Source: Cellulomonas chengniuliangii (GTDB lineage: Bacteria > Actinomycetota > Actinomycetes > Actinomycetales > Cellulomonadaceae). Taken from it: DNA of 64,000 nt. Of this stretch, positions 46,862 to 63,558 are shown piece after piece. The number at the start of each line of letters is the position of its first letter. Within the stretch, counting starts at the first letter, position 1. The notes under the pieces are model-generated. The model made no database searches and was not told where the DNA came from. It saw nothing but the letters and a program-made list of their open reading frames with translations. Position numbers and translations under genes: made by a program. The stretch spans positions 2,232,001-2,296,000 of the forward strand of contig NZ_CP101988.1 in the NCBI RefSeq assembly GCF_024508335.1, written 5' to 3'.

Positions 46862-47623
46862 TCACACCCCGGTGCGGGCGGTCTTCGTGTTGCTCGCCTG
46901 GGCGCGTGGGCGCACCACCAGCAGGTCGATGTTCACATGCGGCGGTCGGCTGAGCGCCCACGCGATCGTGTCGGCGACGTCGTCGGCGACCAGTGGCTGG
47001 TACCCCTCGTACACGGCCGCGGCCCGCGCCTCGTCGCCGTCGAAGCGCACCAGGGAGAAGTCGGTGGCGACGGCGCCGGGGGCGATCTCGATGACCCGCA
47101 GCGGCTCCCCCGCCAGCTCCCAGCGCAGCGTCGTGGCGAGCATCCGCTCGGCGTGCTTGGCGCCGGTGTAGCCCGCGCCCCCCTCGTACGGGCCGTGGGC
47201 CGCGGTGGAGGTGAGGACCAGCACGTCGCCCTCGCCGCTGGCCCGCAGCGCGGGCAGGAACGCCTGGGTGACCCGCAGCGTGCCGAGCACGTTGAGCTCG
47301 TACATGCGCCGCCACTGGTCGATGTCGGAGCTCTCGACGGGGTCGAGCCCGAACGCGCCGCCCGCGTTGTTGACCAGCGCGTCCAGGCCACCGGTGGCCT
47401 CGACGTGAGCGGCGAGCCGGGCGACGTCCTCGTCGACGGTGACGTCGGCGACGAACGCCTCCGCCCCGGTCTCCAGGGCGAGCTCGTCGAGCAGGTCGGC
47501 GCGGCGGGCGGTCGCGACCACCTCCCAGCCGTCGGCGCGCAGGCGGCGCACCGTCGCCGCGCCGATGCCGGAGGAGGCCCCGGTGACGACTGCGCGGCGC
47601 GGACGGGACAGGGCGGTGCTCAT
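46862..47623 (-). CDS. Short-chain dehydrogenase, YdfG-like (possible malonate-semialdehyde reductase)
   Basis: A 253-residue classical SDR. The cofactor motif is VVTGASSGIGAATV, with Arg residues just after it (TARRADL) favouring NADP(H). NNAGGAFG and the catalytic S/Y-x3-K (TSTAAHG; Y in GAGYTGAKHAE) are intact. The ending PPHVNIDLLVVRP matches the YdfG group, whose E. coli member reduces malonate semialdehyde to 3-hydroxypropionate. It lies 59 bases downstream of an aminotransferase that would make malonate semialdehyde, which supports that role. GGAGACC precedes the ATG. Confidence 0.85.
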   Translation of the reverse strand: MSTALSRPRRAVVTGASSGIGAATVRRLRADGWEVVATARRADLLDELALETGAEAFVADVTVDEDVARLAAHVEATGGLDALVNNAGGAFGLDPVESSDIDQWRRMYELNVLGTLRVTQAFLPALRASGEGDVLVLTSTAAHGPYEGGAGYTGAKHAERMLATTLRWELAGEPLRVIEIAPGAVATDFSLVRFDGDEARAAAVYEGYQPLVADDVADTIAWALSRPPHVNIDLLVVRPRAQASNTKTARTGV

Positions 47624-47682
47624 GAGGTCTCCTCAGGAAGAGTGTGTGGTGCTCAGGCGTCCAGGTTACGGAGGCGATCGGC

Positions 47683-49032
47683 TCAGGCTCGCGCGGCGGC
47701 GCCTCCGAGGCTGGCCTCGGCGAGCGCCTCCTCGAGCAGGGCCAGCCCTTCGGCGGCCTCGTCGGACGTCACGACGCACGGCGGCACGACGTGCACCCGG
47801 TTGTCGGCGAGGAACGGCAGCAACCCGCGCTCCAGACACGCCGCCTTGACCTTGGCCATCACGTCGGCGCCCACGGGCTCCCTGGTCTCGCGGTCGGCGA
47901 CGAGCTCGACGGCCCAGAACACCCCGAGCCCGCGCACCTCGCCCACCATGGGGCAGCGCTCGGAGAGCCCGGCCAGCCCGGGGCCGATCACGTCCCGGCC
48001 GATCGCCGCGGCGTGCTCGACGATGCGCTCGTCCTCCATCGCCTCGATCGTCGCCACCACGGCGGCCATGGCCAGTGGGTGGCCGGAGTACGTGAGGCCG
48101 CCGGGGAACACGCGCTCGTCGAAGGTCGCGGCGATCTCCTCCGAGATCATCACCCCGCCCGCGGGCACGTACCCGGAGTTGACGCCCTTGGCGAAGGCGA
48201 CCAGGTCGGGACGGACGTCGTAGTGGTCCAGGGCCAGCCAGGCGCCGCTGCGCCCGAACCCGGCCATCACCTCGTCGAGGATGAGCAGCGCTCCGTACTT
48301 GTCGGCGATGTCGCGTGCTCCGGCGAGGTAGCCGGGCGGCGGCACGAGCACGCCGGCGGTGCCCGGGATCGTCTCCAGCAGGATCGCGGCGACCGACTCC
48401 GGGCCCTCGGCCTGGATCACCCGCTCGAGGTGCCGCAGCGCGCGCTCGCACTCCTGCTCGGGGGTGGCGGCCCAGAACTCCGAGCGGTAGAGGTACGGGC
48501 CGAAGACGTGCACGTGCCCGCGGGAGTACTCGTTCGGCACCCGGCGCCAGTCGCCGGTGGCCGCCACCGCCGCCCCGGTGTTGCCGTGGTACGAGCGGTA
48601 CGTCGAGACCACCTTGTCGCGGCCGGTGTGCAGGCGGGCCATGCGGATGGCGTTCTCGATCGCGTCGGCGCCGCCGTTGGTGAAGAACACGTGCGAGAAC
48701 CCGGCGGGGGCGTGCTCCAGCACCTTCTGCGCGGCGCGCCCGCGCACCAGGCTGGCCGTGGACGGCGCGACGGTCGCGAGGGTGGCCGCCTGCTCCTGGA
48801 TCGCCGCGACGACCCGGGGGTGCTGGTGGCCGATGTTGGTGTTGACGAGCTGGGAGGAGAAGTCGAGGTAGCGCCGTCCAGCGTGGTCCCACACGTGCGA
48901 GCCCGCTCCCCCGGCCACCACGAACGGGCTCAGCCGGCCCTGCGCGGACCAGGAGTGGAAGACGTGCGCCCGGTCGAGGCGCAGGGCCGTGGCGTCGTCC
49001 TCGGCGGTGGCGGCGGGCAGGTCGCTGCTCAT
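47683..49032 (-). CDS. Class-III (omega) aminotransferase, probable beta-alanine transaminase
   Basis: A 449-residue PLP enzyme of the acetylornithine/omega-aminotransferase class. It has NTNIGHQHPRV near the N-terminus, TNGGADAIENAIRMAR, and the PLP-anchoring LILDEVMAGFGRSG. The Schiff-base lysine is in AFAKGVNSGYVPAGG, around residue 287. The pathway neighbours (nitrilase-type amidase and dihydropyrimidinase) would produce beta-alanine, so beta-alanine to malonate semialdehyde is the likely reaction. It is separated from the ABC genes by a strong hairpin (49094-49135) and may be expressed at a lower level. GGAGACCCCC precedes the ATG. Confidence 0.88.
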   Translation of the reverse strand: MSSDLPAATAEDDATALRLDRAHVFHSWSAQGRLSPFVVAGGAGSHVWDHAGRRYLDFSSQLVNTNIGHQHPRVVAAIQEQAATLATVAPSTASLVRGRAAQKVLEHAPAGFSHVFFTNGGADAIENAIRMARLHTGRDKVVSTYRSYHGNTGAAVAATGDWRRVPNEYSRGHVHVFGPYLYRSEFWAATPEQECERALRHLERVIQAEGPESVAAILLETIPGTAGVLVPPPGYLAGARDIADKYGALLILDEVMAGFGRSGAWLALDHYDVRPDLVAFAKGVNSGYVPAGGVMISEEIAATFDERVFPGGLTYSGHPLAMAAVVATIEAMEDERIVEHAAAIGRDVIGPGLAGLSERCPMVGEVRGLGVFWAVELVADRETREPVGADVMAKVKAACLERGLLPFLADNRVHVVPPCVVTSDEAAEGLALLEEALAEASLGGAAARA

Positions 49033-49093
49033 GGGGGTCTCCTCGGTGCTCAGGGCAAGAGTGCCCGACGCGACGGGTGCGCGTCAGCGGTCC

Positions 49094-49135
49094 GGCCGGT
49101 GCGGCGCCGGGGGACCTCCCCGACCCGCACCGGCC
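49094..49135 (-). terminator. Hairpin between binding-protein and aminotransferase genes
   Basis: Outer arms of 11 bases (49094-49104 and 49125-49135) enclose a smaller GGGG/CCCC stem. It lies 5 bases after the substrate-binding protein stop and should terminate or attenuate the upstream operon. Confidence 0.7.
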
Positions 49136-49140
49136 GATGC

Positions 49141-50289
49141 TCAGTTGCCGCCCTCCGCGAGGGTCACGGACTCCGGCTTCCAGCTCGCGCCGACCACGTC
49201 CACCCCCTCATCCTCGAGCTCGGCGAGGGCCTTCGTCACGTACTCCGTGGTGTACGCCGACTCGGGCGGCTCCGCCGAGATGATCGACGCCCCGGTCTCG
49301 TTGCGCGTCTGCAGCGCCAGCGCGACGGTGCGCTTCCACGCGGACTCGTCGAGCAGCCCGATCCCGCCGCTCGTGCTCGGCCAGATGAGCTTGTTGACCT
49401 CGTTGGTCATCCACAGCTGGTGGCTCGTGCCGAGCGTGGAGCCCGCCGCGGTGACCGCGTCGGCGGCCGCCTGGGCGTTGTCCCGCGCGTAGACCCAGCC
49501 CTTGAGCGAGGCCTTGAGGAACTTGACGGTCGTCTCCTGGTACTCGGCGTCGTCCGCCAGCCGCTCGCTGTCCGCCCAGATGGCGTCCTGCAGCATCGCC
49601 GTGCCCTCGTCGTTCCAGTCGATGACGGTGAAGTCGTCGGGCGTGTACAGCTCGCCCGTGTCCGGGTCGACGGTCTCCAGGAGCTGCGCGTACTCGTTGT
49701 AGGTCATGGCCTGCGCCGCGTCGATGTCGCCGTTGAGCAGGCCGAGCATGTCGAACGCCTGGGTTACGAGCTGGAAGTCCGTGACCCCCGCCTTGTTCAG
49801 GCCGGCGAACAGCTCCCACTCGTTCCCGTAGCCCCACGAGCCGACGGTCTTCCCGGAGAGGTCCGCGACGGAGTCGATGCCCGAGTCGGCGAACGCGACC
49901 TGCAGCGTCGCGGACCGCTCGAAGACCTGCGCGACGTTCGTGATGCCGGCGCCCTGCTCGATCGATCCGAGGACCTTGGGCACCCAGGCGATCGCGTAGT
50001 CGACCTCACCCTGCGCCAGGGCGTCCTGCGGCACGATGTCGCCGCCGGACGGGAGGATCTCCACGTCTAGGCCCTCGTCCGCGTAGTAACCCTGCTCCTG
50101 GGCCGCGTAGTAGCCGGCGAACTGCGCCTGCGTGAGCCACTGCAGCTGCAGCTTGACCGGCGTGAGCCCGTCCGCCGCTGCCTCCGCGCCCGCGCCGCCC
50201 TCCTCCGCACTGCTCGCGCACGCCGTCAGCAGCAGTCCCGCTGCCAGTCCGGTCGCCACCGCCGCCCCCCAACGCCTCGTGGTCCTCAT
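49141..50289 (-). CDS. ABC substrate-binding lipoprotein, NMT1/THI5-like family
   Basis: A 382-residue lipoprotein with lipobox LLTAC (C24). It belongs to the SsuA/ThiY/NMT1 group: VKLQLQWLTQAQFAGYYAAQEQGYYADEGLDVEI is diagnostic of proteins binding pyrimidines (thiamine-precursor pyrimidines, in ThiY), riboflavin or related heterocycles. ALAQGEVDYAI and WELFAGLNKAG follow. In this catabolic cluster a pyrimidine, hydantoin or related ligand is likely. GAGAGGAG precedes the ATG. It is the last gene of the importer unit. Confidence 0.88.
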   Translation of the reverse strand: MRTTRRWGAAVATGLAAGLLLTACASSAEEGGAGAEAAADGLTPVKLQLQWLTQAQFAGYYAAQEQGYYADEGLDVEILPSGGDIVPQDALAQGEVDYAIAWVPKVLGSIEQGAGITNVAQVFERSATLQVAFADSGIDSVADLSGKTVGSWGYGNEWELFAGLNKAGVTDFQLVTQAFDMLGLLNGDIDAAQAMTYNEYAQLLETVDPDTGELYTPDDFTVIDWNDEGTAMLQDAIWADSERLADDAEYQETTVKFLKASLKGWVYARDNAQAAADAVTAAGSTLGTSHQLWMTNEVNKLIWPSTSGGIGLLDESAWKRTVALALQTRNETGASIISAEPPESAYTTEYVTKALAELEDEGVDVVGASWKPESVTLAEGGN

Positions 50290-50398
50290 GTCATCTCCTC
50301 TCGTCGGTGAAGCTGGGCACCGGCGCGCAGCGGATGCCGCGAGCCCTCGACCGGCCTGGCGACGCCGGCAGGCGGGACGTCGTGCGCCGGCTTGCCGC

Positions 50399-51166
50399 TC
50401 ATGCGGTGCGCCGGCGGGTGACGGCGCGCTCCGCGAGGGAGGTCGCCGTGAAGAAGAGCAGCCCGACCGCGATCGCGCCGAGCACGTAGGCCCAGGCCTG
50501 GGCGTAGTCCGAGCCCGCGGCGGCGGTGGTGATGAATGAGCCGATCCCCGAGCGCGGGCCGCCGAAGTACTCCGCGACCACGGCCGAGATGACGGCGAGC
50601 GAGGACGCGAGTCGTAGCCCGGTGAAGAGGAACGGCACAGCGGTGGGGATCGTCACCACACGAGCGGCCTGCCGGGGCGTGGCGGCCAGCGCGCGCAGCA
50701 GGTCCCGGTGCACGGGCAGCACCTGGCGCAGCCCGCGGAGGGTGTGGACGTACACCGGCACGAACGCCGCGAGCGCCGCGACGACCACCCGGGCGTGCTC
50801 CGACCCCGCGCCGTGCATGGAGTACAGCACCGGCGCGAGCGCCACGACGGGCACCACTGACAGGGCGGTGACGAGCGGCGCCGCGAGCGCGTCGACGAGC
50901 CGCAGCGCCGCGGCGAGCAGCGCGACGAGCATCGCCAGGACGCCACCGGCGAGCAGCCCGACCGCCGCGTTGCGACCGGTGACGACCGCGGCCGAGCCGA
51001 TCGGCCCACGAAAGGCGACGAGCTCCTCCGCGATGGCGGCCGGCCCTGGGAGCACGAACGGCGGGATCTGCGCGAGCACCACGGCGCCCTGCCAGGCGGC
51101 GACCAGGCCCACGAGCAGCACGAGCGGTGGCAGCACCTGCCGCAACGAGGCCGCCACGCGCGTCAT
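50399..51166 (-). CDS. ABC importer permease (SsuC/ThiX type), second
   Basis: A 255-residue BPD-type permease with six predicted helices. The EAA-like loop is ALAATPRQAARVVTIPTAVPFLFTGLRLASS. ATG 51164-51166 overlaps the ATPase stop (ATGA). It pairs with the permease at 51966-52988, so the importer has two different membrane subunits, whereas SsuC/ThiX systems usually use one. Confidence 0.88.
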   Translation of the reverse strand: MTRVAASLRQVLPPLVLLVGLVAAWQGAVVLAQIPPFVLPGPAAIAEELVAFRGPIGSAAVVTGRNAAVGLLAGGVLAMLVALLAAALRLVDALAAPLVTALSVVPVVALAPVLYSMHGAGSEHARVVVAALAAFVPVYVHTLRGLRQVLPVHRDLLRALAATPRQAARVVTIPTAVPFLFTGLRLASSLAVISAVVAEYFGGPRSGIGSFITTAAAGSDYAQAWAYVLGAIAVGLLFFTATSLAERAVTRRRTA

Positions 51167-51969
51167 CCGGCGCCCTCCGCCTGCGCGAGGCTGACGCCCT
51201 CGAGCAGCGCCGCGCGCACCGTGGCGATCTCGTCGAAGAACGTGGCGTCCGTGCGCAGCGCGTCCAGGTCCTCGAGGGAGCCGCTGCGGTCGAGCGTGAC
51301 GGGCGCCACCTCCCGGATGCGCCCAGGGCGCGGGGACATCACCACCACCCGGTCCGAGAGGAACACCGCCTCGGGGATCGAGTGCGTGACGAACACCACG
51401 GCGGCGCGGGTCTCGGCGCAGATCCGCAGCAGCTGGGTCTGCAGGCGCTCCCGGGTCATCTCGTCCAGCGCGCCGAAGGGCTCGTCCATGAGCAGCAGGC
51501 TGGGCTCCTCGGCGAGGGCCCGCGCGATCGCCACCCGCTGCTGCATGCCGCCCGAGAGCTGGTCCGGGAAGTGCTCGGCGAAGTCGGCGAGGCCGACCAG
51601 CGCGAGAAGGTGCTCTGCCCGCTCGCGGCGGCCCGCCCGGCCCATCCCGGCCAACGCGAGCGGCAGCTCGACGTTCGCGCGGACGGTGCGCCACGGCAGC
51701 AGCCCGGCCTGCTGGAAGGCGATCCCGTACTCGTGGGCGAGCCGCGCCTCCCGGGCGGGGCGGCCGAACACCTGCACACTCCCCGCGGTGGGGGCGTCGA
51801 GGTCGGCGATGAGGCGCAGCAGCGTGGACTTGCCGCAGCCCGAGGGTCCGATGAGGGACACGAACTGCCCTGCCGCGACGGTCAGCGAGACGTCGTCGAG
51901 CGCGACGACCCGCCCGGCGCCGCTGCCGAACACCCGCGAGACGCCGTCCACCTGCACGGCGGCGGTCAT
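51163..51969 (-). CDS. ABC importer ATPase (SsuB/TauB type)
   Basis: A 268-residue nitrate/sulfonate/pyrimidine-class ATPase. Walker A is GPSGCGKST, Q-loop FQQAGLLPWRTV, signature LSGGMQQRVAIARAL, Walker B LLLMDEPFGALDEMTR and switch His VTHSIPEA. The length is normal. It sits between the two permease genes with ATGA overlaps on both sides, so all three are co-translated. Confidence 0.92.
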   Translation of the reverse strand: MTAAVQVDGVSRVFGSGAGRVVALDDVSLTVAAGQFVSLIGPSGCGKSTLLRLIADLDAPTAGSVQVFGRPAREARLAHEYGIAFQQAGLLPWRTVRANVELPLALAGMGRAGRRERAEHLLALVGLADFAEHFPDQLSGGMQQRVAIARALAEEPSLLLMDEPFGALDEMTRERLQTQLLRICAETRAAVVFVTHSIPEAVFLSDRVVVMSPRPGRIREVAPVTLDRSGSLEDLDALRTDATFFDEIATVRAALLEGVSLAQAEGAG

Positions 51970-52988
51970 CGGGCGGCCTCCAGCCGGCGGAACCTGCGCA
52001 GCGAGGACCCGAGCGCCGCGACGAGGCCGGCGGCGAGCAGGCCGAGCGCCACCGCCCCGAAGATGGGCGCCCATGGCTTGGCGGGGTCGCTCGCGGAGAA
52101 CGCCGCGAACTCCACGATCATGCGGCCCAGACCGCCGGGGAGGCCGGTGGCGACCTCGGCCACGACGGCCCCGATCACGGCGCCCGCCGCGGCCAGGCGC
52201 AGCGCGGGCAGCAGGTACGGCACCGAGGCCGGCAGTCGCAGCCTCACCAGGGTGGACCACCACCCCGCGCCGTACGCCCGCATCAGCTCCGCGTGGATCG
52301 GGGTGGGCGACTGCAGTCCGCGCAGCATCCCGACTGCCACTGGGCAGAACGCCAGGTACGACGCGATGACCGCCACCGACATCCACGGCGCCCACTGCAC
52401 CGGGCCCACCTCGAGCCGGGACCCCCAGGAGCGCACCAGCGGCGCGAGGGCGATGAGCGGCACCGTCTGGGACAGGACGACGAGCGGGAGCACCGCCGCC
52501 TCGACCAGTCGCACGCGCTGCATGGCCAGCGCGAGCGCCATGCCCACCACCAGGCCGAGCAGCCAGCCCACCGACGCGACGCCGAGGCTCATCGCGCCGG
52601 CCCGCAGCACCGCGGACCACAGCGGCGGCGCGCCGGCGCCGCCCGAGACCGGCTCGAGCAGCCTGGCCGCCATGTCCCACGTGTGCGGCATCGCGAGGTC
52701 GGTGGTGCGGGGCAGCATCCGGGTCGCGCCCAGCAACCACCCGTCGGCCGGGCCGAGCACCTTGTACAGCTCCCAGGCCGCCGCCACGGCGGCCACCGAC
52801 GCCAGGCCGAGCAGCGGACCCGAGCGCACCGCGCGCGCCGTCCAGGCCGGCATGCGCCACGCCCTCCGCACACCCTCGGGCCCGGTCCTCACGCCGGTCG
52901 CCGCCACCCGCGGCGTGACATCCGCCGAGGTCGCGCCGGCCGGCGCGATCGGGGCCGAGGACGCCGCAGTCTCCGGCCGCGTGCTCAT
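51966..52988 (-). CDS. ABC importer permease (SsuC/ThiX type), first
   Basis: A 340-residue permease with an unusual 50-residue Ala/Pro/Arg-rich cytoplasmic N-terminus, then six helices. The EAA-like loop is LMRAYGAGWWSTLVRLRLPASVPYLLPALRLA. It overlaps the upstream oxidoreductase stop by ATGA, linking transport to the catabolic enzymes. It presumably forms a heterodimer with the permease at 50399-51166. Confidence 0.88.
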   Translation of the reverse strand: MSTRPETAASSAPIAPAGATSADVTPRVAATGVRTGPEGVRRAWRMPAWTARAVRSGPLLGLASVAAVAAAWELYKVLGPADGWLLGATRMLPRTTDLAMPHTWDMAARLLEPVSGGAGAPPLWSAVLRAGAMSLGVASVGWLLGLVVGMALALAMQRVRLVEAAVLPLVVLSQTVPLIALAPLVRSWGSRLEVGPVQWAPWMSVAVIASYLAFCPVAVGMLRGLQSPTPIHAELMRAYGAGWWSTLVRLRLPASVPYLLPALRLAAAGAVIGAVVAEVATGLPGGLGRMIVEFAAFSASDPAKPWAPIFGAVALGLLAAGLVAALGSSLRRFRRLEAAR

Positions 52989-54016
52989 GCGCTCGCCACC
53001 ACGGTCCGCGCGAGCGCCGGGATGACCCGCTCGCCGTACACCCGCATCGTCTCCTCCTTGTTGTCGTGCTGGAGGTACGCGGCGAACTGGGTGACGCCCA
53101 GCTCCCGCAGCTCTTCGAGCCGCGCGACGTGCTCGCGTGGGCTGCCCAGCAGGCAGAAGCGCTCGATGATCTCGTCGGGCACGAACGCGGCGTGCGAATT
53201 CCCGGCCCGCCCGTGCTCGTTGTAGTCGTAGCCCTCACGCCCGCGGATGTAGTCGGTGAGCGCCGCCGGAACTGACGAGCCCGCGCCGTACCGGGCGACG
53301 ATGTCGGCCACGTGGTTGCCGACCATGCCGCCGAACCAGCGGCACTGCTCGCGCATGTGCGCCCGCGCACCCGGAGAGTCGCCGTCGCCCACGTACGCCG
53401 GGGCGGCGACGCAGAACGACAGCGAGTCCGGGTCTCGTCCGACGGCCGCGGCGGCGTCGCGCACCGAGCCGATCATCCAGGCCGCGATGTCCGGGTCGGC
53501 GAGCTGCAGGATGAACCCGTCGCCCACCTCGCCGGCCAGGCGCAGCGCCTGCGGGCCGTAGGCGGCGACCCACATCTCGAGCGACGAGCCCTTGGACCAC
53601 GGGAAGCGCAGCGTGCGCCCGTTGACCTCGACGGCGCGGTCGTTCGCCAGCTCGCGGATCACGTGGATCGACTCGCGGAGCGTGGCGAGGTTCGAAGGGC
53701 GGCCGTTGAGGGTGCGGACGGCCGAGTCTCCCCGGCCGATCCCGCACACCGTCCGGTTGCCGTACATCTCGTTGAGGGTCGCGAACAGCGACGCGAGCAC
53801 GGTCCAGTCCCGGGTCGCGGGGTTCGTCACCATCGGGCCGACCGTCACCCGACGGGTCGCGGCGAGGATCGCCGAGTAGATGACGAACGGCTCCTCCCAG
53901 AGCAGATGCGAGTCGAACGTCCACACGTGGTCGAAGCCGTGGCTCTCCGCCTGGCGTGCCAGGTCGACCGCGCGCGCCGCGGGCGGGTTGGTCTGCAGGA
54001 CGACACCGAAGTCCAT
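52985..54016 (-). CDS. Luciferase-like F420/flavin-dependent oxidoreductase
   Basis: A 343-residue TIM-barrel enzyme of the bacterial-luciferase-like (LLM) superfamily, in the subgroup related to F420-dependent methylenetetrahydromethanopterin reductase. It begins MDFGVVLQTNPPAARAVDLARQAE; FDHVWTFDSHLLWEEPFV and GVTQFAAYL occur further along. F420 is the probable cofactor from family and context, but FMN is possible. The gene sits between dihydropyrimidinase and the importer in an ATGA-linked string. In a reductive pyrimidine route the first step, reduction of uracil or thymine, has no other candidate here, so this enzyme is the best candidate. That assignment is inference. Confidence 0.87.
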   Translation of the reverse strand: MDFGVVLQTNPPAARAVDLARQAESHGFDHVWTFDSHLLWEEPFVIYSAILAATRRVTVGPMVTNPATRDWTVLASLFATLNEMYGNRTVCGIGRGDSAVRTLNGRPSNLATLRESIHVIRELANDRAVEVNGRTLRFPWSKGSSLEMWVAAYGPQALRLAGEVGDGFILQLADPDIAAWMIGSVRDAAAAVGRDPDSLSFCVAAPAYVGDGDSPGARAHMREQCRWFGGMVGNHVADIVARYGAGSSVPAALTDYIRGREGYDYNEHGRAGNSHAAFVPDEIIERFCLLGSPREHVARLEELRELGVTQFAAYLQHDNKEETMRVYGERVIPALARTVVASA

Positions 54017-54045
54017 GGGCTCTCCTTGGGTCGGCGGGGCAGGGC

Positions 54046-55461
54046 TCAGACGAGGTACTGCGACAGGCCACGCTTGAGGTACCTGCCATGGCCGGGGCGC
54101 CCGTGGTACGCGCCGCCCTCGACGACCACCCGGCCGCGCGACATGACCAGGTCGATGGCGCCGTCCACCTCGAATCCCTCCCACGCGGAGTGGTCCATGC
54201 TCATGTGGTGCGTGGCGGCGGAGATCGTGGTGCGCCCCGCGGGGTCGTAGACCACGATGTCGGCGTCGGCGCCGGGCGCGATGACGCCCTTGGCCCCGTA
54301 GAGGCCGAACATCCGCGCCGGTGTGGTGGAAGTGAGCTCGACCCACCGCTCGAGCGTGATCTGGCCGGTGACCACCCCCTGGTACAGCAGGTCCATCCGG
54401 TGCTCCACCGACCCGATGCCGTTGGGGATCGCCCGGAAGTCGCCGAGCCCGAGGTCCTTCTGCCCGGTCATGCAGAACGGGCAGTGGTCGGTGGAGACCA
54501 TCTGCAGGTCGTTGGTCCGCAAGGCGCGCCACATGTGGTCCTGGTGCCCCTCGGCCCGCGAGCGCAAAGGCGTCGAGCAGACCCACTTGGCGCCCTCGAA
54601 CCCCGGCGCGCCGAGCTGCTCCTCCAACGAGAGGTACAGGTACTGCGGGCATGTCTCCCCGAACACGTTCTGCCCGGCGTCCCGCGCCGCGGCGAGCTGG
54701 GCCACCGCCTGCTTCGCGCTCACGTGCACCACGTAGAGCGGGGCCCGGGTGAGGTCGGCGAGCATGATCGCCCGGTGCGTGGCCTCCTCCTCGAGCTGCC
54801 ACGCGCGCGCCACGCCGTGGTAGTACGGCGCGGTCTTGCCAGCCTCGACGAGCTGCGCGGCCAGCACGTCGATCGCCGGGCCGTTCTCCGCGTGCATCAT
54901 GGTCAGGAGCCCGAGGTCGGCGGCCTTCTGCATGGCCCGCACGATCTGCGCGTCGTCGGAGTAGAAGACTCCCGGGTAGGCCATGAACAGCTTGTAGCTG
55001 GTGATGCCCTCGTCGACGAGCCCTTCCATGGCCTTGAGCGAGTCGTCGTCGACGCCGCCGATGATCTGGTGGAACGCGTAGTCGATGGCGCAGTTCCCGG
55101 CGGCCTTCGCGTGCCAGGCCGCCAGGCCGTCCTGCACCCGCTCACCGGCACGTTGCACGGCGAAGTCGATGATCGTCGTGGTGCCGCCCCACGCCGCCGC
55201 CCGGGTGCCCGTCTCGAACGTGTCCGAGGCTGCGGTCCCGCCGAACGGCAGCTCCATGTGGGTGTGCGCGTCCACGCCGCCGGGGATGACGTACTTGCCG
55301 GTCGCGTCGATCACCCGGTCGACGCGCGCCGGCAGGTCGACGCCGAGCACGGTCGAGCCGGGCGCCAGGACGGCGGCGACGCGCTCGCCGTCGACCAGCA
55401 CGTCCGCGGCGCCGCGGCCCGTCGCGCTGACCAGCGTGCCGCCGGTGATGAGGGTCGTCAT
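54046..55461 (-). CDS. Dihydropyrimidinase / D-hydantoinase
   Basis: A 471-residue cyclic amidohydrolase that opens dihydropyrimidines to N-carbamoyl-beta-amino acids. Zn ligands H66 and H68 are in GVDAHTHMELPFGG. The carboxylated bridging lysine is K157 in TSYKLFMAYP. Later His residues are in TMMHAEN and VVHVSA, and an Asp is in STDHCPF. All are intact and the length is typical of bacterial dihydropyrimidinases. It lies 29 bases from the LLM oxidoreductase and 25 from the nitrilase-family gene in one operon. Confidence 0.94.
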   Translation of the reverse strand: MTTLITGGTLVSATGRGAADVLVDGERVAAVLAPGSTVLGVDLPARVDRVIDATGKYVIPGGVDAHTHMELPFGGTAASDTFETGTRAAAWGGTTTIIDFAVQRAGERVQDGLAAWHAKAAGNCAIDYAFHQIIGGVDDDSLKAMEGLVDEGITSYKLFMAYPGVFYSDDAQIVRAMQKAADLGLLTMMHAENGPAIDVLAAQLVEAGKTAPYYHGVARAWQLEEEATHRAIMLADLTRAPLYVVHVSAKQAVAQLAAARDAGQNVFGETCPQYLYLSLEEQLGAPGFEGAKWVCSTPLRSRAEGHQDHMWRALRTNDLQMVSTDHCPFCMTGQKDLGLGDFRAIPNGIGSVEHRMDLLYQGVVTGQITLERWVELTSTTPARMFGLYGAKGVIAPGADADIVVYDPAGRTTISAATHHMSMDHSAWEGFEVDGAIDLVMSRGRVVVEGGAYHGRPGHGRYLKRGLSQYLV

Positions 55462-55486
55462 CGGGTGCTCCTCACGGGTCGGCAGG

Positions 55487-56335
55487 TCACGGCGCCACGA
55501 GGGAGCCGTAGGCGTCGGGCCGCCGGTCCCGGAAGAACTGCCACCGTTCGCGCACCTCGCGGATCTGGCCCAGGTCGAGGTCTCGCACGATCAGCTCGTC
55601 CTCGGTGGCGGAGCCGGACTCCCCCACGAGGCTCCCGTCGGGGCCCACCGCGTACGAGCTGCCGTAGAAGGCGACTGCCTCAGCCCCGTACTCGTTGTCC
55701 TCCAGGCCCACCCGGTTGTTCGCCACGACGAAGATCCCGTTGGCGACCGCTGCGGCGGGCTGCTCGATCTCCCAGAGCTTGTTGGAGATCCCGGGCGCGG
55801 TGGCGTTCGGGTTGAAGACGATCTCCGCGCCGGCCAGCGCGAGGGCGCGCCACCCCTCGGGGAAGTGCCGGTCGTAGCAGATGTTGACGCCGATCGTGCC
55901 GACCGCCGTCTCGAAGACCGGGTACCCCAGGTTGCCGGGCCGGAAGTAGAACTTCTCCCAGAACTTGGGCAGGTGCGGGATGTGGTGCTTGCGGTACTTG
56001 CCGAGGTAGGACCCGTCGGCGTCGATCACGGCGGCCGTGTTGTAGAGCACGCCGGGCTGCTCCTCCTCGTAGACCGGCAGCACCATGACGATCCCCAGCT
56101 CGGCTGCCAGGGCGGCGAACCGCTCCGTGGTCGGCCCGGGCACCGACTCCGCGTAGTCGTAGTACGCGGAGTCCTGCGTGATGCCGAAGTACGGCCCGGT
56201 GAACAACTCCTGGAAGGCGATGACCTGGGCGCCCTGGGACGCGGCCTCGCGCGTCCAGGCCTCGTGGAGCGCGATCATCGACTCCTTGTCACCGGTCCAG
56301 GAAGCCTGGGTGAAGGCGACTCGCACGACTGCCAT
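55487..56335 (-). CDS. Nitrilase-superfamily N-carbamoyl amidohydrolase (beta-ureidopropionase-like)
   Basis: A 282-residue carbon-nitrogen hydrolase. The catalytic triad is intact: E43 (FQELFTGPYFG), K116 (GKYRKHHIPH) and C153 (GVNICYDRHFPEGW). LWEIEQPAAAVANG and VVANNRVG are typical of beta-ureidopropionase or N-carbamoyl amino acid amidase. With the adjacent dihydropyrimidinase it would release beta-alanine (or beta-aminoisobutyrate), ammonia and CO2. ATG 56333-56335 is used; upstream frame residues fall in the promoter region. It is the first gene of the operon. Confidence 0.92.
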   Translation of the reverse strand: MAVVRVAFTQASWTGDKESMIALHEAWTREAASQGAQVIAFQELFTGPYFGITQDSAYYDYAESVPGPTTERFAALAAELGIVMVLPVYEEEQPGVLYNTAAVIDADGSYLGKYRKHHIPHLPKFWEKFYFRPGNLGYPVFETAVGTIGVNICYDRHFPEGWRALALAGAEIVFNPNATAPGISNKLWEIEQPAAAVANGIFVVANNRVGLEDNEYGAEAVAFYGSSYAVGPDGSLVGESGSATEDELIVRDLDLGQIREVRERWQFFRDRRPDAYGSLVAP

Positions 56336-56410: not shown

Positions 56411-56425
56411 TGTCCGCCTTGGACA
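56411..56425. promoter_or_regulatory. Inverted repeat TGTCC-N5-GGACA in the divergent promoter region
   Basis: A perfect 5-5 inverted repeat inside the 211-base gap between the catabolic operon and the MocR gene. Nearby, GTTTC-N5-GTTTC forms a direct repeat (about 56437-56451). On the plus strand TAAACA at 56479-56484 could be the -10 of the regulator gene. These are plausible MocR operators; such regulators often bind direct repeats. Confidence 0.45.
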
Positions 56426-56546
56426 TTTCTGCGGCGTTTCCGCCGGTTTCACACATGCGTCGCTGGATCACGCGGAGGTAAACATCTCGGCGCCGGCCGT
56501 GCCGACCCCCGCGGCGCCGTGGGCGGCGCGGGCCGTCGGCCGCACG

Positions 56547-57944
56547 ATGGCCCGCATGGAGCTCGGAGCACTGGTCGCTGCGGTCGACGACCGCAGCCCT
56601 CGCGGCATCGCGGCGACCGTCTCCCGCCTGGCCCGGAACGGCGAGCTCCGACCGGGCGACCGGCTCCCCACCGTGCGCGCCACGGCGGCGGCGCTCGGCG
56701 TGAGCCCGGCGACCGTGGGCTCGGCCTGGCGGGCCCTGGCCGCCGTCGGCATGGTGGGCGCCCGGGGCCGGGCAGGGACCTTCCTGCTGCCCGGCCCCAC
56801 AGGGTGGCTCCCACCGCGCTACCGGGACATGGCCCGAGGCGCGGCCGCCGCGCTCGACCTCTCCACCGGCACGCCCGACCCCGCCCTGCTGCCCACCCTG
56901 GGCCCGGCGCTCGCGCGCGTCGGCGCGCGCACTCCCGCGGCGGTGACCGGCACCTACCTGTCCGCGCCGCTGGTCCCCGAGCTCGAGGCGGCCCTGCGCG
57001 CCTCGTGGCCGTTCCCTCCCGACCGGCTCACCGTGGTGGACGGGGCGGTCGACGCGATCGAGCGGACGCTCGGGCAGGTCGCGCGGTTCGGCGACCGGGT
57101 CGCGGTGGAGGACCCGGGGTTCCCGCCCCTGTTCGACCTGCTCGACCAGCTTGGCCTCGAGCGCGTCCCCGTCCCCCTCGACCGTCAGGGGATGCGCCCG
57201 GACGGGCTGGCCGCCGCGCTGGAGGCCGGCGCCAGCACCGTCGTCCTGCAGCCGCGCGCCCACAACCCGACGGGGGTCAGCCTGACCCCCACCCGGGCGC
57301 GCGATCTCGCCGCCGTGATCCGCCGGCACGACCGTCGCGCCGCCGCTGCCGCCGAGGCCGCCGGGACCGGTCGGCGCCCGCGCGAGGTCCACGTCATCGA
57401 GGACGACCACTCGGGCGAGATCGCGTCCTCGCGTGACGTCACCCTCGGCGCGCACCTGCCGCGCCAGGTGGTGCATGTGCGCTCGTACTCCAAATCGCAC
57501 GGCCCCGACCTGCGGATCGCCGCCGTGGGCGGCCCGGGGCCCGTGCTCGACGCGGTCGTCGCCCGGCGCATGCTGGGCCCCGGCTGGACCAGCCGGCTGC
57601 TCCAGCACGTCCTCGCCGACCTGCTGGTGGACGGGGCGGCCGTCGACGCCGTCGCCCACGCCCGCCGCGTCTACTACGCGCGCCAGCGCACGCTGTGCGA
57701 GGCCCTGGCCCGGCACGGGCTGGCGGTGCCCCCCGGCGACGGCATCAACCTGTGGCTGCCGGTGGCCGACGAGGCGACGGCGATGATCCGGCTCGAGGCG
57801 GCGGGCGTCCGGGTCGCCCGCGGAACGCCCTTCGTGGCCTCCGCAGCCGAGCCGGGACCCGGACATGTGCGGGTCACCGTCGCCTCACTCGCCGATGGCG
57901 TCGAGGAGGTCGCGCGGAGGCTGGCGCTGGCGGCGGCCGCCTGA
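56547..57944 (+). CDS. MocR/GabR-type regulator (GntR winged helix plus aminotransferase domain)
   Basis: A 465-residue PLP-dependent transcription regulator. The N-terminal GntR winged helix (residues 10-75) reads LPTVRATAAALGVSPATVGSAWRAL. A fold-type-I aminotransferase domain follows (about 105-465), with HNPTGVSLTP, an Asp in VIEDDHSGEI and the PLP lysine in VRSYSKSHGPDLRIA near residue 315. Such proteins sense amino acids or amines such as GABA, taurine or beta-alanine-like ligands. Divergent placement suggests control of the pyrimidine/beta-amino-acid cluster. Two in-frame ATGs (56547 and 56556) compete. No strong Shine-Dalgarno was seen. Confidence 0.9.
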   Translation: MARMELGALVAAVDDRSPRGIAATVSRLARNGELRPGDRLPTVRATAAALGVSPATVGSAWRALAAVGMVGARGRAGTFLLPGPTGWLPPRYRDMARGAAAALDLSTGTPDPALLPTLGPALARVGARTPAAVTGTYLSAPLVPELEAALRASWPFPPDRLTVVDGAVDAIERTLGQVARFGDRVAVEDPGFPPLFDLLDQLGLERVPVPLDRQGMRPDGLAAALEAGASTVVLQPRAHNPTGVSLTPTRARDLAAVIRRHDRRAAAAAEAAGTGRRPREVHVIEDDHSGEIASSRDVTLGAHLPRQVVHVRSYSKSHGPDLRIAAVGGPGPVLDAVVARRMLGPGWTSRLLQHVLADLLVDGAAVDAVAHARRVYYARQRTLCEALARHGLAVPPGDGINLWLPVADEATAMIRLEAAGVRVARGTPFVASAAEPGPGHVRVTVASLADGVEEVARRLALAAAA

Positions 57945-58092: not shown

Positions 58093-59148
58093 ATGACCCT
58101 GCCGACCGTCCACCACGCGAACCGCGCCCCCCGGCGCCGAGGCGCCGTCCTGCCCGCCCTGCTGCCCGCCGCGGCGCTGGCCCTCGGGCTCAGCGCCTGC
58201 GCCTCGCCCGCGGCAGAGGCGCCTGCCGAGGGCGCCCCGTCCCCCACGACGTCCGCCACCTCGGGGTTCGCCCCGCTCGCCGTCGACAACTGCGGCACCG
58301 AGGTCGCGTTCGCGGCGCCGCCCGAGCGGGTCGTGACCATCAAGTCGACGGCGACCGAGACGATGCTCGCGCTGGGCCTCGAGGACCGACTCGTCGGCAC
58401 GGCGTTCTCCGACGGCCCCCTGCCCGAGAGCCTCGCGGCCGCCGCCGCTGCCGTCCCGGTGCTCTCGGAGAAGGTCCCCGGCCAGGAGGCGTTGCTGGCC
58501 AGCGAGCCCGACCTGGTCTACGCGGGCTGGGAGTCGAACTTCTCCGCCGAGGGCGCCGGCGAGCGCCCGACGCTGGCCACGCTCGGCATCGCGAGCTATG
58601 TGTCGCCGGCCGCCTGCCTGGGCGAGGGCTACCAGCCCGACCCGCTGACCTTCGACGTGGTCTTCGACGGCATCCGCGAGGTCGGCACGATCTTCGGCGT
58701 CCAGGAGCGCGCGGAGGAGCTGGTTGCGGAGCAGGAGGCGACGCTCGCGGGCGTCGATGCCCCGGCCGGGACGACCACCGCGCTGTGGTTCAGCTCCGGC
58801 TCGGACACCCCGTACGTGGGCGCCGGGATCGGGGCGCCGCAGATGATCATGGACGCCGCGGGGCTGACCAATATCTTCGCCGACGTGCACGAGTCCTGGA
58901 CGTCCGTCGGCTGGGAGCAGGTCGTGGCGGCAGACCCCGACGTCATCGTGCTCGTCGACTCGGCGTGGGGCTCCACCGAGAAGAAGATCGGCGTGCTCGA
59001 GTCCAACCCGGCGACGAGCCAGCTCACGGCCGTGCGCGAGAAGCGCTACCTCGTGGTGCCGTTCCCCGCGTCGGAGGCCGGGGTGCGCAATGCCGACGCC
59101 GTGGCCGACCTCGTCGCCCAGCTCGCGGCGCTGCCCGAGGTGGGCTGA
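58093..59148 (+). CDS. ABC substrate-binding lipoprotein, proposed F420-0 binding type
   Basis: A 351-residue lipoprotein with lipobox LSAC (C36) and a FecB/BtuF-like two-lobed binding fold: PPERVVTIKSTATETMLALGLEDRLVG and WEQVVAADPDVIVLVDSAWGS. It is far from classic siderophore or vitamin B12 binders. The trio with the next two genes, next to cofE and F420-dependent enzymes, matches the actinobacterial cassette proposed by family curators to import the cofactor precursor F420-0 (TIGR03868/03869/03873, recalled from memory). GGAG precedes the ATG. Confidence 0.8.
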   Translation: MTLPTVHHANRAPRRRGAVLPALLPAAALALGLSACASPAAEAPAEGAPSPTTSATSGFAPLAVDNCGTEVAFAAPPERVVTIKSTATETMLALGLEDRLVGTAFSDGPLPESLAAAAAAVPVLSEKVPGQEALLASEPDLVYAGWESNFSAEGAGERPTLATLGIASYVSPAACLGEGYQPDPLTFDVVFDGIREVGTIFGVQERAEELVAEQEATLAGVDAPAGTTTALWFSSGSDTPYVGAGIGAPQMIMDAAGLTNIFADVHESWTSVGWEQVVAADPDVIVLVDSAWGSTEKKIGVLESNPATSQLTAVREKRYLVVPFPASEAGVRNADAVADLVAQLAALPEVG

Positions 59149-59153
59149 CACCC

Positions 59154-60316
59154 GTGCGCCGTCCGACAGCCGCGATGCGGCCGAGCCCTCGGCCCACCGG
59201 GGCGCGCCCGCACCAGGCGCTGGCCGCGCCCGGGCCGAGCCGCCGTGCCGGGCTGCCCGGCGCGCGTCCGGGCCCGGCGCCCCGCCCGGCGCCCTCCGCC
59301 GGCGGCCTGCGGCTCGCCGTGGTGGTCCTGGCGCTGGCCGCGGTGCTGGTGCTCACCGTGCTGGTGAGCGTGACGATCGGCCCGGCGGACATCGCCGTCA
59401 CGGACGTGCTCGGCAGCATCGGCCACCACCTGGGGCTGGTCGGCGACGCCCCGCCCCGCCTCACCGACGCGATCGTCTGGGAGCTGCGGCTGCCGCGCGT
59501 GCTGACCGCGGCGGCTGTGGGCGCCGGGCTGGCCGTCGCGGGCGCCGTGATGCAGAGCCTCACCCGCAACCCCCTGGCCGACCCGTACCTGCTCGGGCTG
59601 TCCTCGGGGGCGTCGTTGGGCGCGGTCGCGGTCCTGCTCCTGGGGGCGGCGGTGGCCCTCCCCGCGGCGGCCTTCGTCGGGGCGCTGGCGGCGCTCGTGG
59701 CGACCATGGCCCTGGCCGGGTCGCTCGGCGCGCTCACGCCCACACGCACGGTGCTGGCCGGGCTGGCCGTGTCCCAACTATGCGCCGCCGCCACCAGCTT
59801 CGTGATCTTCTGGTCGGCGACGGGCGACTCCTACCGCGAGATCCTCGGCTGGCTGCTCGGCTCCCTGGCCGGGTCGACGTGGGCCTCCGTGACGATCGCG
59901 GGCACGGCCGTCCTCGTCCTCGGCTCCGCGCTCGTGGGCGCCGGGCGCACGCTCGACGCCTTCGCGTTCGGCGACACGGCGGCCGCGGCGCTGGGCGTGC
60001 ACGTCGCCCGGACCCGCTGGGTGCTGCTGACGCTGGTGGCCCTGCTGACTGGCGCCCTGGTGTCCGTGAGCGGCTCGATCGGGTTCCTCGGACTGGTGCT
60101 CCCGCACGCCGTGCGGTTCGTGGTGGGCGCCCGGCACCGGCTCCTTCTGCCGGTCTCGGCTCTCGTGGGCGCGAGCTTCCTGGTGTGGGCGGACACCGCC
60201 GCGCGCACGATCTTCGAGCCACGCGAGCTGCCGGTGGGGATCCTCACCGCGTTCCTCGGGGCGCCGGTCTTCGCGTGGCTGCTGTTCCGGTCCCGTCGCG
60301 GCGCCGAGGGGGCGTC

Positions 60317-60320
<4 letters not shown>
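59154..60320 (+). CDS. ABC permease, FecCD/BtuC family, proposed F420-0 importer
   Basis: A 388-residue permease with about 10 membrane helices after a 50-residue Pro/Arg-rich N-terminus. FecCD motifs include LPRVLTAAAVGAGLAVAGAVMQSLTRNPLADPYLLG and SGSIGFLGLVLPHAVRF. GTG at 59154 is the first start after the binding-protein gene (5-base gap). ATG at 59175 is an alternative start and neither has a strong Shine-Dalgarno. It is translationally coupled to the ATPase (GTGA). Confidence 0.87.
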
Positions 60321-61090
<770 letters not shown>

Positions 61091-61142
61091 GGCGCTCGCG
61101 CTGGTCAGAACGCCGGGCTCGCACCAGGATGTGCGTGGCCGA

Positions 61143-61164
61143 GCCGCACGCGACCGCGTGCGGC
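61143..61164 (+). terminator. Palindromic hairpin after the F420-0 importer genes
   Basis: A 22-base near-perfect palindrome with 10-base arms and a 2-base centre lies 52 bases past the ATPase stop and 27 bases before the RDD gene. It may be a terminator or an operator. Confidence 0.45.
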
Positions 61165-61191
61165 CGCGCGTCCGAGACTCCGGGAGCCCAG

Positions 61192-61740
61192 ATGACCGTG
61201 CCGCCCCTCCCCACTCCGGCGACCACCGCACCGCCGAGCGCGGGACCTGTCGTCCCGGCGCCGCTGCCCTACGGGACGGCGGGCGCCGCCTGGTCGCCCT
61301 ACGCGTCGTGGCCGCGCAGGGTCGGCGCGCGCGTCATCGACCAACTGCTCTTGGCGGCGGTGTGGATTGCCGCGATGCCGATCGCCGTGGCGGTGGGCGA
61401 GCCGGGCGTCGAGGCCGCGGGACGGCCTGTGCGGGACTCGACCCCCGCGAGCGCCGTGGTCATCTGCGTCGCGCTAGCCGCTGTCGCCGGCCTGTGGGTG
61501 TGGAACCGCGGAGTGCTCGAGGGGCGCTCGGGGTCGTCGCTCGGCAAGCGCGCGGTCGGGACCCGCCTGGTGCGGGCGTCGACGGGCGAGCCCTTGGGCC
61601 TCGGCGCCACGCTGCTGCGCGACGTCTGCCACATCGCCGACGGCCCCCTGCTGCTGGGCTTCCTGTGGCCCTTGTGGGACGCCCGCCGGCAGACCTTCGC
61701 CGACAAGATCCTCGACACGGTCGTCATCCGGCGGGGCTGA
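61192..61740 (+). CDS. RDD family membrane protein
   Basis: A 182-residue membrane protein of the RDD family, with the motif at WPRRVGARVIDQLLLAAVW and the second signature GSSLGKRAVGTRLV. Three or four membrane helices are predicted after a 40-residue Pro/Ala-rich cytoplasmic lead. Function is unknown; RDD proteins have been linked to ion transport. The ATG at 61192 has GGGAG upstream; a longer frame exists. It follows the F420-0 importer genes on the same strand and converges on cofE. Confidence 0.82.
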   Translation: MTVPPLPTPATTAPPSAGPVVPAPLPYGTAGAAWSPYASWPRRVGARVIDQLLLAAVWIAAMPIAVAVGEPGVEAAGRPVRDSTPASAVVICVALAAVAGLWVWNRGVLEGRSGSSLGKRAVGTRLVRASTGEPLGLGATLLRDVCHIADGPLLLGFLWPLWDARRQTFADKILDTVVIRRG

Positions 61741-61771
61741 CCCGCACGGTCCGCGGCAGAGCCGGGAACTC

Positions 61772-62554
61772 TCAGCGCCGGTCGTGGGCGGTGGCGTCCT
61801 TCCACCCGTCGGCGTACGCCTCGGCGCTGCCCCGGGCGAACATGTCGTCCGGGCCGGTGCGCACCAGAGTGCGCGCCCCGGGACCGTCATCCCGCGTGAC
61901 GTGGCGGCCCAGCCCTCGCACGATCGCGACCGGCCGGCCCGCGGCCTTTCCCTTGACGAGCTCGGCGGCGGCGGCGATCTCGTCGGCCACCGCGGCCTGG
62001 CTGACCTGCAGCGCCCGGCCGTGGGAGTCGAGCGTGCCGCGGAGGTCCTCGAGCACGGCCACGCCCGCGGCGCCGATCGCCATGTCCGTCTGCCCCAGCC
62101 GCCAGGGGCGGCCGGCGGTGTCGCTGAGGATCACGCCCAGCCGCACACCGTGGCGCTGCTGCAGCCCGTGCCGCAGAGCGCGGGCAGAGGCGTCAGGATC
62201 GAGCGGGAGCAGCAGAACGGTGCCCTCCGCGGTGTTGCTGGAGTCGACGCCCGCGGCGGCCATGACCAGGCCGAGCCGGTTCTCGACGATGCGCGTCACG
62301 CCGCCGGCGTGCTCGCGGGTGGCCACGACCCGCACGGTCTCGTCGGTGATCGCCTGCTCGCGGTCGGCGGCCTGGACCACACGTCCCTCGGCCTTCGACA
62401 CGATCTTGCTCGTCACCACGAGGATGTCGCCGTCGAGCGGGCGCTGCTCGGGCGGCGCGGCGTCGAGGGCCGCCCCGACGAGGGCGACCAGGTCGTCGCC
62501 GGGCCGCACCTCGGGGATGCCCGCCAGCGCCCAGACGCGCATCCCCTCGCTCAT
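61772..62554 (-). CDS. cofE: Coenzyme F420-0:L-glutamate ligase
   Basis: CofE adds gamma-linked glutamates to F420-0 with GTP, the last step in making the working cofactor. The 260-residue protein has the family motifs [31 protein letters not shown] and [21 protein letters not shown]. It is the stand-alone form: the nitroreductase-like domain of mycobacterial FbiB is absent. ATG 62552-62554 overlaps the stop of the F420 oxidoreductase gene (ATGA). No F420-0 synthesis genes (cofC, cofD, fbiC) are in the window. Confidence 0.93.
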
Positions 62555-63558
62555 CGGACCAGTGCGGGCAGCACGTCGCGGCCGAACACGTCGATCCACT
62601 CGCGCTGGTTGCGCCCGACGTTGTGCAGGTACACGCGGTCGAAGCCCAGGTCGACGTACTTCTGGATCGCGGCCCGGTGCACGTCGGGGTCGGCCGAGAC
62701 GACCATCCGACCGTCGAAGTCCTCGGGGCGCACCAGCTTGGCCATCTGCTCGAAGTCGAACGGCGAGCGGATGTCGGCCTTGGGGAACTTCATGCCGCCG
62801 TTGGGCCACTCGGTCATCGCGTTGGCCATCGCCTGCTCGTCGGTCTCCGCCCACGACAGGTGCACCTGCAGCACCTTGGGCATCGTCTCCGGGTCGCGGC
62901 CCGACTCGCGGGCGCCCTCGGCGAACTTGCCGAAGAGGCCGGAGATCTTCTCGAGTGGCGCTCCGACGGTGATGAGCCCGTCCGCGTGGCGGCCGGCCCG
63001 CTTGGCCGTCACCGGTCCGGCGGTGGCCACGAGGATCTCGGGCGCGACCTCCGGCATGGTCCACAGACGGGTGGACTCGTGCTTGTAGAACGTGCCCGAG
63101 TGCTTCGTGTCCTTGCCCGCGATCGAGGCGGCGAACAGCTTCTTGATGATGTCGATGGCCTCGAACATGCGGTTGATCCGCTCGGGGGCCTCGGGCCAGT
63201 ACTGCGCCGTGACGTGCTCGTTGAGGGCCTCGCCTGAGCCGAGCCCGAGCCAGTGCCGGCCGGGGTACATCGCGGCGAGCGTCGCCGACGCCTGCGCGAC
63301 CATCGCCGGGTGCCAGCGGAAGGTCGGGGCCGTCACTCCGGGGCCGATGTCCCCCGTGGTGCGCTCGCCCAGCGCGGTGAGCACGTTCCACACGAAAGCG
63401 GCCTGCCCCTGCGAGGGGAGCCAGGGCTGGTAGTGGTCGGCCGCCATCACGCCGGAGAACCCCCGGGACTCGGCGTAGGCCGAGAGCTCGACCACCTCGG
63501 TGGGGTGGAACTGCTCCAGCGCTGCCGCGTACCCGACCGTCAACCCGCTCGCCGTCAC
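62551..63558 (-). CDS. F420-dependent oxidoreductase, G6PDH-like (Fgd) family
   Basis: A 335-residue LLM-superfamily enzyme related to F420-dependent glucose-6-phosphate dehydrogenase. The Fgd catalytic residues align: H42 and W46 in ADHYQPWLP and E110 in [12 protein letters not shown] and PTFRWHP also match. The sugar-phosphate-binding Lys/Arg residues of Fgd1 were not clearly matched, so substrate is uncertain. If it is Fgd-like it would make F420H2 for other reductases. The start is GTG at 63556-63558 with GAGAGGTG upstream. It is translationally coupled to cofE. Confidence 0.9.

Follow-up and report, generated by a model that had tools for sequence, protein, structure and literature searches.

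Which enzyme reduces the pyrimidine ring, and with which electron donor, is the question raised by a gene cluster in Cellulomonas chengniuliangii (GCF_024508335.1) that has the looks of a reductive pyrimidine degradation pathway and no recognizable dihydropyrimidine dehydrogenase. The cluster lies in a stretch of 64,000 nt of contig NZ_CP101988.1 (positions 2,232,001-2,296,000), here called the window, to which the coordinates of the host genes refer. The host genome is a single contig of 3.57 Mb and 99.99% complete. At the center of the question stands a gene for a 343-residue LLM oxidoreductase of the NCBIfam family TIGR03842 (52985..54016, minus strand). A preliminary description of this DNA had suggested that F420H2 may drive uracil reduction, and the genome-wide absence of the usual enzyme (PydA or PreA) and the gene context support this as a hypothesis. 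Gene neighborhoods in three phyla link TIGR03842 with the supply of F420 as well as with the hydrolysis of dihydropyrimidines. The cluster probably encodes a reductive pyrimidine degradation pathway in which the TIGR03842 protein would act as an F420H2-dependent uracil/thymine reductase that replaces PydA/PreAT and is fed by F420 salvage, a reading built on sequence and gene neighborhoods.

The preliminary description had called the normal first enzyme missing and had named a search of the genome for PreA or PydA as a check. Genome-wide, the sole match to PF01180 (DHO_dh) above the cut-off is the quinone-type biosynthetic PyrD, one more match staying under it at 20.5 bits. We have also run the profiles of PreA, TIGR03842, CofD and CofH over 248 genomes of the host's order. 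The PreA model (NF006183) matched neither the host nor any of these genomes at E <= 1e-60, and both controls, E. coli and Deinobacterium, were detected. Thus, the enzyme is indeed absent as far as these two models reach, and a hidden PreA in the host was rejected. TIGR03842 itself is above cut-off in 59 of the 248 genomes. It might be argued that the LLM gene is accessory and that an unrecognized dihydropyrimidine dehydrogenase performs the first step. PreA and TIGR03842 do occur together above cut-off in 7 of the 50 TIGR03842 genomes tested, which belong to 50 of the 80 loci of the cross-phylum set described below. These are three Leisingera, Aquamicrobium, Limimaricola, a metagenome-assembled genome (MAG) of the Geminicoccaceae and a set of contigs which bears the label Nocardioides marinus and resembles Leisingera. 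The remaining 43 have no PreA above cut-off, and a match in Motiliproteus reaches 219 bits, under the cut-off of 335. With no PreA match throughout the host's order as well, an accessory role of the LLM gene is highly unlikely. The order of Halomonas organivorans points the same way (194 genomes, TIGR03842 in 10, PreA in 13, both in none), with 0.7 joint occurrences expected and numbers too small for significance. The contigs labelled Nocardioides marinus (L022) carry a Leisingera-type cof operon and an LLM gene with 82% identity to the Paracoccus query; this assembly is likely mislabelled or contaminated.

The LLM protein belongs clearly to TIGR03842 (583.7 bits, cut-off 295.45), a family that NCBIfam lists as a hypothetical equivalog (F420_CPS_4043) with no assigned function. 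Its closest folds are those of the F420-dependent Mer enzymes, ranked above FMN monooxygenases including RutA. It keeps the cis-peptide loop (VTNP) and an aspartate, Asp97, equivalent to Mer Asp96. Valine (Val6) stands at the place of Glu6, for which a catalytic role in Mer is described in PMC11094777. The scores for the Mer models are far under their cut-offs (TIGR03555, 121.2 bits against 348.7; PRK02271, 130.6 bits against 276). With these scores and the replaced glutamate, a Mer function of the protein was rejected. The rival proposal that TIGR03842 is an FMN-dependent monooxygenase analogous to RutA, with F420 unrelated, fares no better. The RutA model TIGR03612 (cut-off 498 bits) is absent among the best 25 of the 27 families for the LLM protein, the last of which scores 19.6 bits. 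Among the 8 scanned of the 11 host proteins that match TIGR03842 RutA gave no match, apart from a weak one for the Fgd-like protein described below (31.9 bits, cut-off 498); three were left unscanned and no genome search with the RutA model was made. A monooxygenase of the FMN/RutA type was rejected on the fold ranking and on the cof operons found next to TIGR03842 genes in other bacteria, and we regard it as most improbable.

The enzymes that would act downstream of the reductase are encoded on the same strand. As the preliminary description had stated, the amidase, dihydropyrimidinase, LLM oxidoreductase, NMT1-type importer, aminotransferase and short-chain dehydrogenase/reductase (SDR) genes all lie on the minus strand, and the tight linkage that it had noted for the first six is borne out by gaps of 25, 29, -4, -4 and -4 bp; the subsequent gaps are 109, 108 and 59 bp. 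The dihydropyrimidinase (PydB-like step, 54046..55461) scores 543 bits with TIGR02033 (cut-off 393), and its nearest solved structure is the dihydropyrimidinase 3sfw (460.5 bits). It was said to have all catalytic residues, and the motifs with H66, H68, K157, H190, H246, D325 and Y162 were located. The nitrilase-superfamily N-carbamoyl amidase (55487..56335; PF00795, 226 bits), a predicted beta-ureidopropionase (PydC-like step), retains the motifs that hold Glu43, Lys116 and Cys153. Its nearest solved proteins are an N-carbamoylputrescine amidohydrolase (196 bits) and a beta-ureidopropionase (181.5 bits); the AguB model gives 252 bits, below its cut-off of 410, and no equivalog cut-off is reached. 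The K282 motif is present in the class-III aminotransferase (47683..49032), a predicted beta-alanine aminotransferase with 750 bits for NF004718 (cut-off 472), a model that names no function; its nearest solved protein is a taurine:2-oxoglutarate aminotransferase (342 bits). In the dihydropyrimidinase, the nitrilase and the aminotransferase these motif residues presumably have the catalytic roles familiar from their families. The last gene encodes an SDR, a predicted malonate-semialdehyde reductase (46862..47623). The likeness to YdfG that had been claimed for it is there (NF007829, 165 bits), the model's cut-off of 411 is not reached. The product names of amidase and SDR are thus predictions from sequence.

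Between these enzyme genes lie those of an ATP-binding cassette (ABC) importer, again on the minus strand. It consists of permease 1 (51966..52988; PF00528, 75 bits), an ATPase of the taurine/nitrate type (51163..51969; PF00005, 121 bits), permease 2 (50399..51166; PF00528, 71 bits) and an NMT1/THI5-like substrate-binding protein (49141..50289; PF09084, 119 bits), together a predicted pyrimidine importer. On the other side a MocR-type regulator (GntR plus aminotransferase domain; PF00392, PF00155) is encoded divergently from the cluster (56412..57944, plus strand, start uncertain). It sits between the degradation genes and the F420-related block described next, and a relative adjoins the cluster in 14 of the 32 actinobacterial loci read. 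Adjoining the cluster at 43146-46831, minus strand, are two neighboring ABC half-transporter-like genes, of the exporter type by eye.

An F420-dependent enzyme needs a supply of F420, and the host seems to lack F420 biosynthesis. CofH (TIGR03551) has no match in the genome and CofD (TIGR01819) just one of 19 bits; no separate search was made for CofC or CofG. Taken alone, the missing cofD and cofH would undermine a role of F420. The answer is given by a block at 58093-63558 that starts 1.8 kb and ends 7.2 kb beyond the degradation cluster. On the plus strand it encodes a putative F420-0 ABC importer with the substrate-binding protein (58093..59148; TIGR03868, 463 bits, cut-off 392), the permease (59247..60320, start uncertain; TIGR03869, 515 bits, cut-off 437) and the ATPase (60317..61090; TIGR03873, 390 bits, cut-off 372). 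These NCBIfam models are themselves labelled putative F420-0 transporter. On the minus strand follow CofE, the coenzyme F420-0:L-glutamate ligase (61772..62554; TIGR01916, 232.9 bits, cut-off 180.65; PRK13294, 317.5 bits, cut-off 304), and an F420-family, Fgd-like dehydrogenase (62551..63558; TIGR03557, 279 bits, cut-off 210; TIGR03554, 216 bits, under its cut-off of 420). Hence the range 46862..56335 given in the preliminary description holds real genes and is too short, since the F420-related genes belong to the system too. Further LLM proteins are encoded at three other host loci (L005, L007, L008). They include proteins above the cut-offs of the F420-labelled models TIGR03559 and TIGR03560, and one that passes two cut-offs, that of TIGR03557 and that of the FMN-labelled TIGR03885.

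The link between TIGR03842 and F420 extends to the relatives of the host. Within the order, cofD occurs in 49 of the 59 genomes that have TIGR03842 and in 48 of the 189 that do not (Fisher p 3e-15, kinship ignored). In 18 of the 49 no more than 25 kb separate it from the LLM gene, and in 17 of these 18 CofH gave no match at E <= 1e-30. Such a combination is common in the order, as 47 of its 97 cofD-bearing genomes have no CofH match at that threshold; they may take up FO, or their FO synthase may be divergent. We have read 32 actinobacterial loci, each from a different one of the 59 genomes, scoring all open frames. Loci where cofD is close to the LLM gene were favored in the selection, which biases counts in this direction. 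A recurring gene order emerges, with gaps: Fgd-like, cofE, (cofD), F420-0 importer, MocR, amidase, dihydropyrimidinase, LLM, NMT1-type importer, aminotransferase. The neighborhood of the LLM gene includes genes of the F420-0 importer in 13 of 16 cofD+ cofH- loci (one of them, L164, with two of the three subunits) and in 4 of 8 cofD- loci, hence in 17 of 24 loci of these two classes vs none of 8 cofH+ loci (p 6e-4). If the cofD+ cofH- class is real, these genomes would need external FO and not F420-0. An Fgd-like protein is encoded near the LLM gene in 13 of the 32 loci.

For a view across phyla we have scanned contigs, using an alignment headed by the homolog from Paracoccus alcaliphilus, and kept the best 80 of at least 588 confirmed stretches. 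Of these loci 64 are of the proteobacterial type, 12 come from Chloroflexota and 4 from elsewhere. Neighbors were identified in phmmer comparisons with reference genes, under score thresholds set by us, in flanks of at most 10 kb, many of them shorter. In Proteobacteria the gene ends cofG-H-D-C-E-npdG-LLM operons. At least one cof gene is found in 45 of the 64 proteobacterial-type loci, npdG in 47, dihydropyrimidinase in 24, amidase in 29 and either hydrolase in 34; preA/preT and rutA are found in none of these flanks. Leisingera and Paracoccus denitrificans have an NCS1 permease, a dihydropyrimidinase and a Zn-amidase beside the cof-LLM operon, and the P. denitrificans genome is one of those with no PreA above cut-off. 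On a plasmid of Leisingera caerulea the order is NCS1 permease, hydA, Zn hydrolase, an aminotransferase (AptA, above cut-off) and transhydrogenase, then cofG-H-D-C-E-npdG-LLM. An annotated plasmid of Paracoccus alcaliphilus carries cof operon, LLM gene and ABC importer; the part viewed contains no dihydropyrimidinase. In Chloroflexota a dihydropyrimidinase or amidase is near the LLM gene in all 12 loci, and the LLM gene stands between the two in 8 of them. One of the 4 other loci has a dihydropyrimidinase. Since an F420-reducing candidate (npdG or Fgd-like) is often nearby, TIGR03842 would be placed on the F420H2-consuming side. A distant LLM protein (31% identity) is encoded directly after hydantoinase/oxoprolinase genes on a Natrinema haloarchaeal plasmid (L018:4254-9002), perhaps another F420-linked ring-opening pathway.

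The genomes of the 35 loci without nearby cof genes were searched as a whole for cofD, which is present in 25 of them and in both controls. It is absent in all nine Devosia-type genomes (seven Devosia, one Hyphomicrobiales MAG and one Pelagibacterium, some of them drafts or MAGs). The tenth genome without it, an Acidobacteriota MAG (L082), also has no cof genes near the LLM gene. A CofE match lies near the LLM gene in 9 of 9 Devosia-type loci and a match to the importer binding protein in 8 of 9, the ninth (L072) having the ATPase only; an Fgd-like protein is encoded in 5 of 9. Gene calls here missed or merged some genes, and absences in these loci carry little weight. In total, 79 of the 80 loci have nearby cof genes, cofD elsewhere in the genome, or importer/CofE genes. 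In a tree of TIGR03842, used for grouping only because 23 of its 71 inner branches have less than 80% support, Devosia-type enzymes fall among the proteobacterial ones and one branch separates the Actinobacteria from the rest. As the two are grouped apart, two lineages show the association with salvage genes.

From these data we propose the following pathway, in which substrate, reaction directions and the imported F420 form are inferred. The pyrimidine would enter by the NMT1-type ABC importer, and TIGR03842 would reduce uracil or thymine to the dihydro form with F420H2, the hydride going to the C5-C6 double bond by analogy with PydA. The dihydropyrimidinase would open the ring, the nitrilase-type amidase would release ammonia and CO2, and aminotransferase and SDR would convert beta-alanine via malonate semialdehyde to 3-hydroxypropionate. 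F420-0, or a related form, might be imported through the TIGR03868/69/73 transporter, CofE could add the glutamate tail, and the neighboring Fgd-like dehydrogenase could reduce F420. The enzyme might also be F420H2-dependent and act on a different ring, for instance that of a hydantoin-like compound, a 5-substituted uracil or a pyrimidine of the thiamine type, which is then opened by a hydantoinase-type enzyme. The binding protein resembles NMT1/THI5 and weakly matches a solved protein that binds formyl-aminopyrimidine (50.9 bits), and the TIGR02033 model covers D-hydantoinases as well as dihydropyrimidinases. The NCS1-type permeases of many proteobacterial loci, the AptA omega-aminotransferase of Leisingera and a RutG-like permease beside the LLM gene in two actinobacterial loci (L145, L169), where the NMT1-type importer usually stands, fit uracil and beta-alanine better, and a different ring is therefore unlikely. 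In L145 no dihydropyrimidinase match was found in the cluster read.

Several points weigh against uracil reduction with F420H2 as the function of TIGR03842. Both the catalysis and uracil as its substrate are deduced from sequence. Neither dihydropyrimidinase nor amidase was found in the examined flank of 30 of the 64 proteobacterial-type loci, the Devosia-type included. The co-occurrence with PreA described above indicates that TIGR03842 is not always a replacement. The F420-0 importer was not found in 5 of the 10 cofD-less TIGR03842 genomes of the order, four of which were read for about 9 kb on each side and one was unread. The Fgd-like protein scores higher with the FMN-labelled TIGR03885 (301 bits) than with TIGR03557, under the cut-off of 399. 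Since the host has other F420-labelled LLM proteins, imported F420 need not serve the pyrimidine pathway alone. Family cut-offs leave the names of amidase, SDR and aminotransferase unsettled, and all genome and locus counts ignore kinship.

Known already are the pyrimidine pathway with NADPH, NADH and ferredoxin variants and the NCBIfam label of a putative F420-0 transporter. What appears new is a variant of pyrimidine degradation with F420 as donor, predicted from sequence and well supported by context. We found no report of F420-dependent uracil reduction among the papers listed by our literature searches, most subscription journals excluded, nor did these papers assign TIGR03842 to pyrimidine reduction or tie F420 salvage to it. 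The proposal would give a function to a widespread F420 enzyme family listed so far without one. It would also offer a possible reason for F420 production in Alphaproteobacteria such as Paracoccus, where the role of F420 is called minor or niche-specific in a 2021 review (PMC8498797). As one enzyme accompanied by synthesis genes in some bacteria and by import genes in others, TIGR03842 would be a concrete system for F420 exchange between microbes, in the tractable Paracoccus denitrificans and Devosia. Tentatively, one can go further and see F420 as a traded, vitamin-like cofactor that many bacteria use chiefly for uracil degradation. Producers among the Proteobacteria might then devote their F420 operon to this single enzyme, this host and Devosia might import F420-0, and the cofD+ cofH- relatives might import FO via transporters of this same family and complete the cofactor on their own. 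We consider this wider picture possible, short of an even chance.

Comparison with known systems places the locus as follows. TIGR03842 contains the LLM protein far above cut-off and is functionless in NCBIfam, whereas a function is proposed here. With Mer the protein shares the nearest fold, the cis-peptide loop and the aspartate, and differs in Val6 and in the low model scores. The combination of F420-0 importer and CofE is recognizable from three subunits above their cut-offs with CofE close by; different is the link to a specific candidate F420-consuming pathway, and in cofD+ cofH- relatives the import of FO is possible. A luciferase-family, F420-dependent "yanthine reductase" has been proposed for a purine pathway in Chloroflexota (PMC12507026), and it likewise is predicted to replace another reductase in nucleobase metabolism. 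It belongs to a purine pathway with SsnA clusters, and was compared by description. Closest is the Pyd pathway (PydA/PreAT, PydB-E), with which the locus shares the clustered dihydropyrimidinase, carbamoyl amidase, aminotransferase and SDR. In contrast to that pathway no FMN/Fe-S dihydropyrimidine dehydrogenase was found here and the predicted donor is F420H2, which would join NADPH, NADH (PreAT) and ferredoxin, the donors given in PMC7332683.

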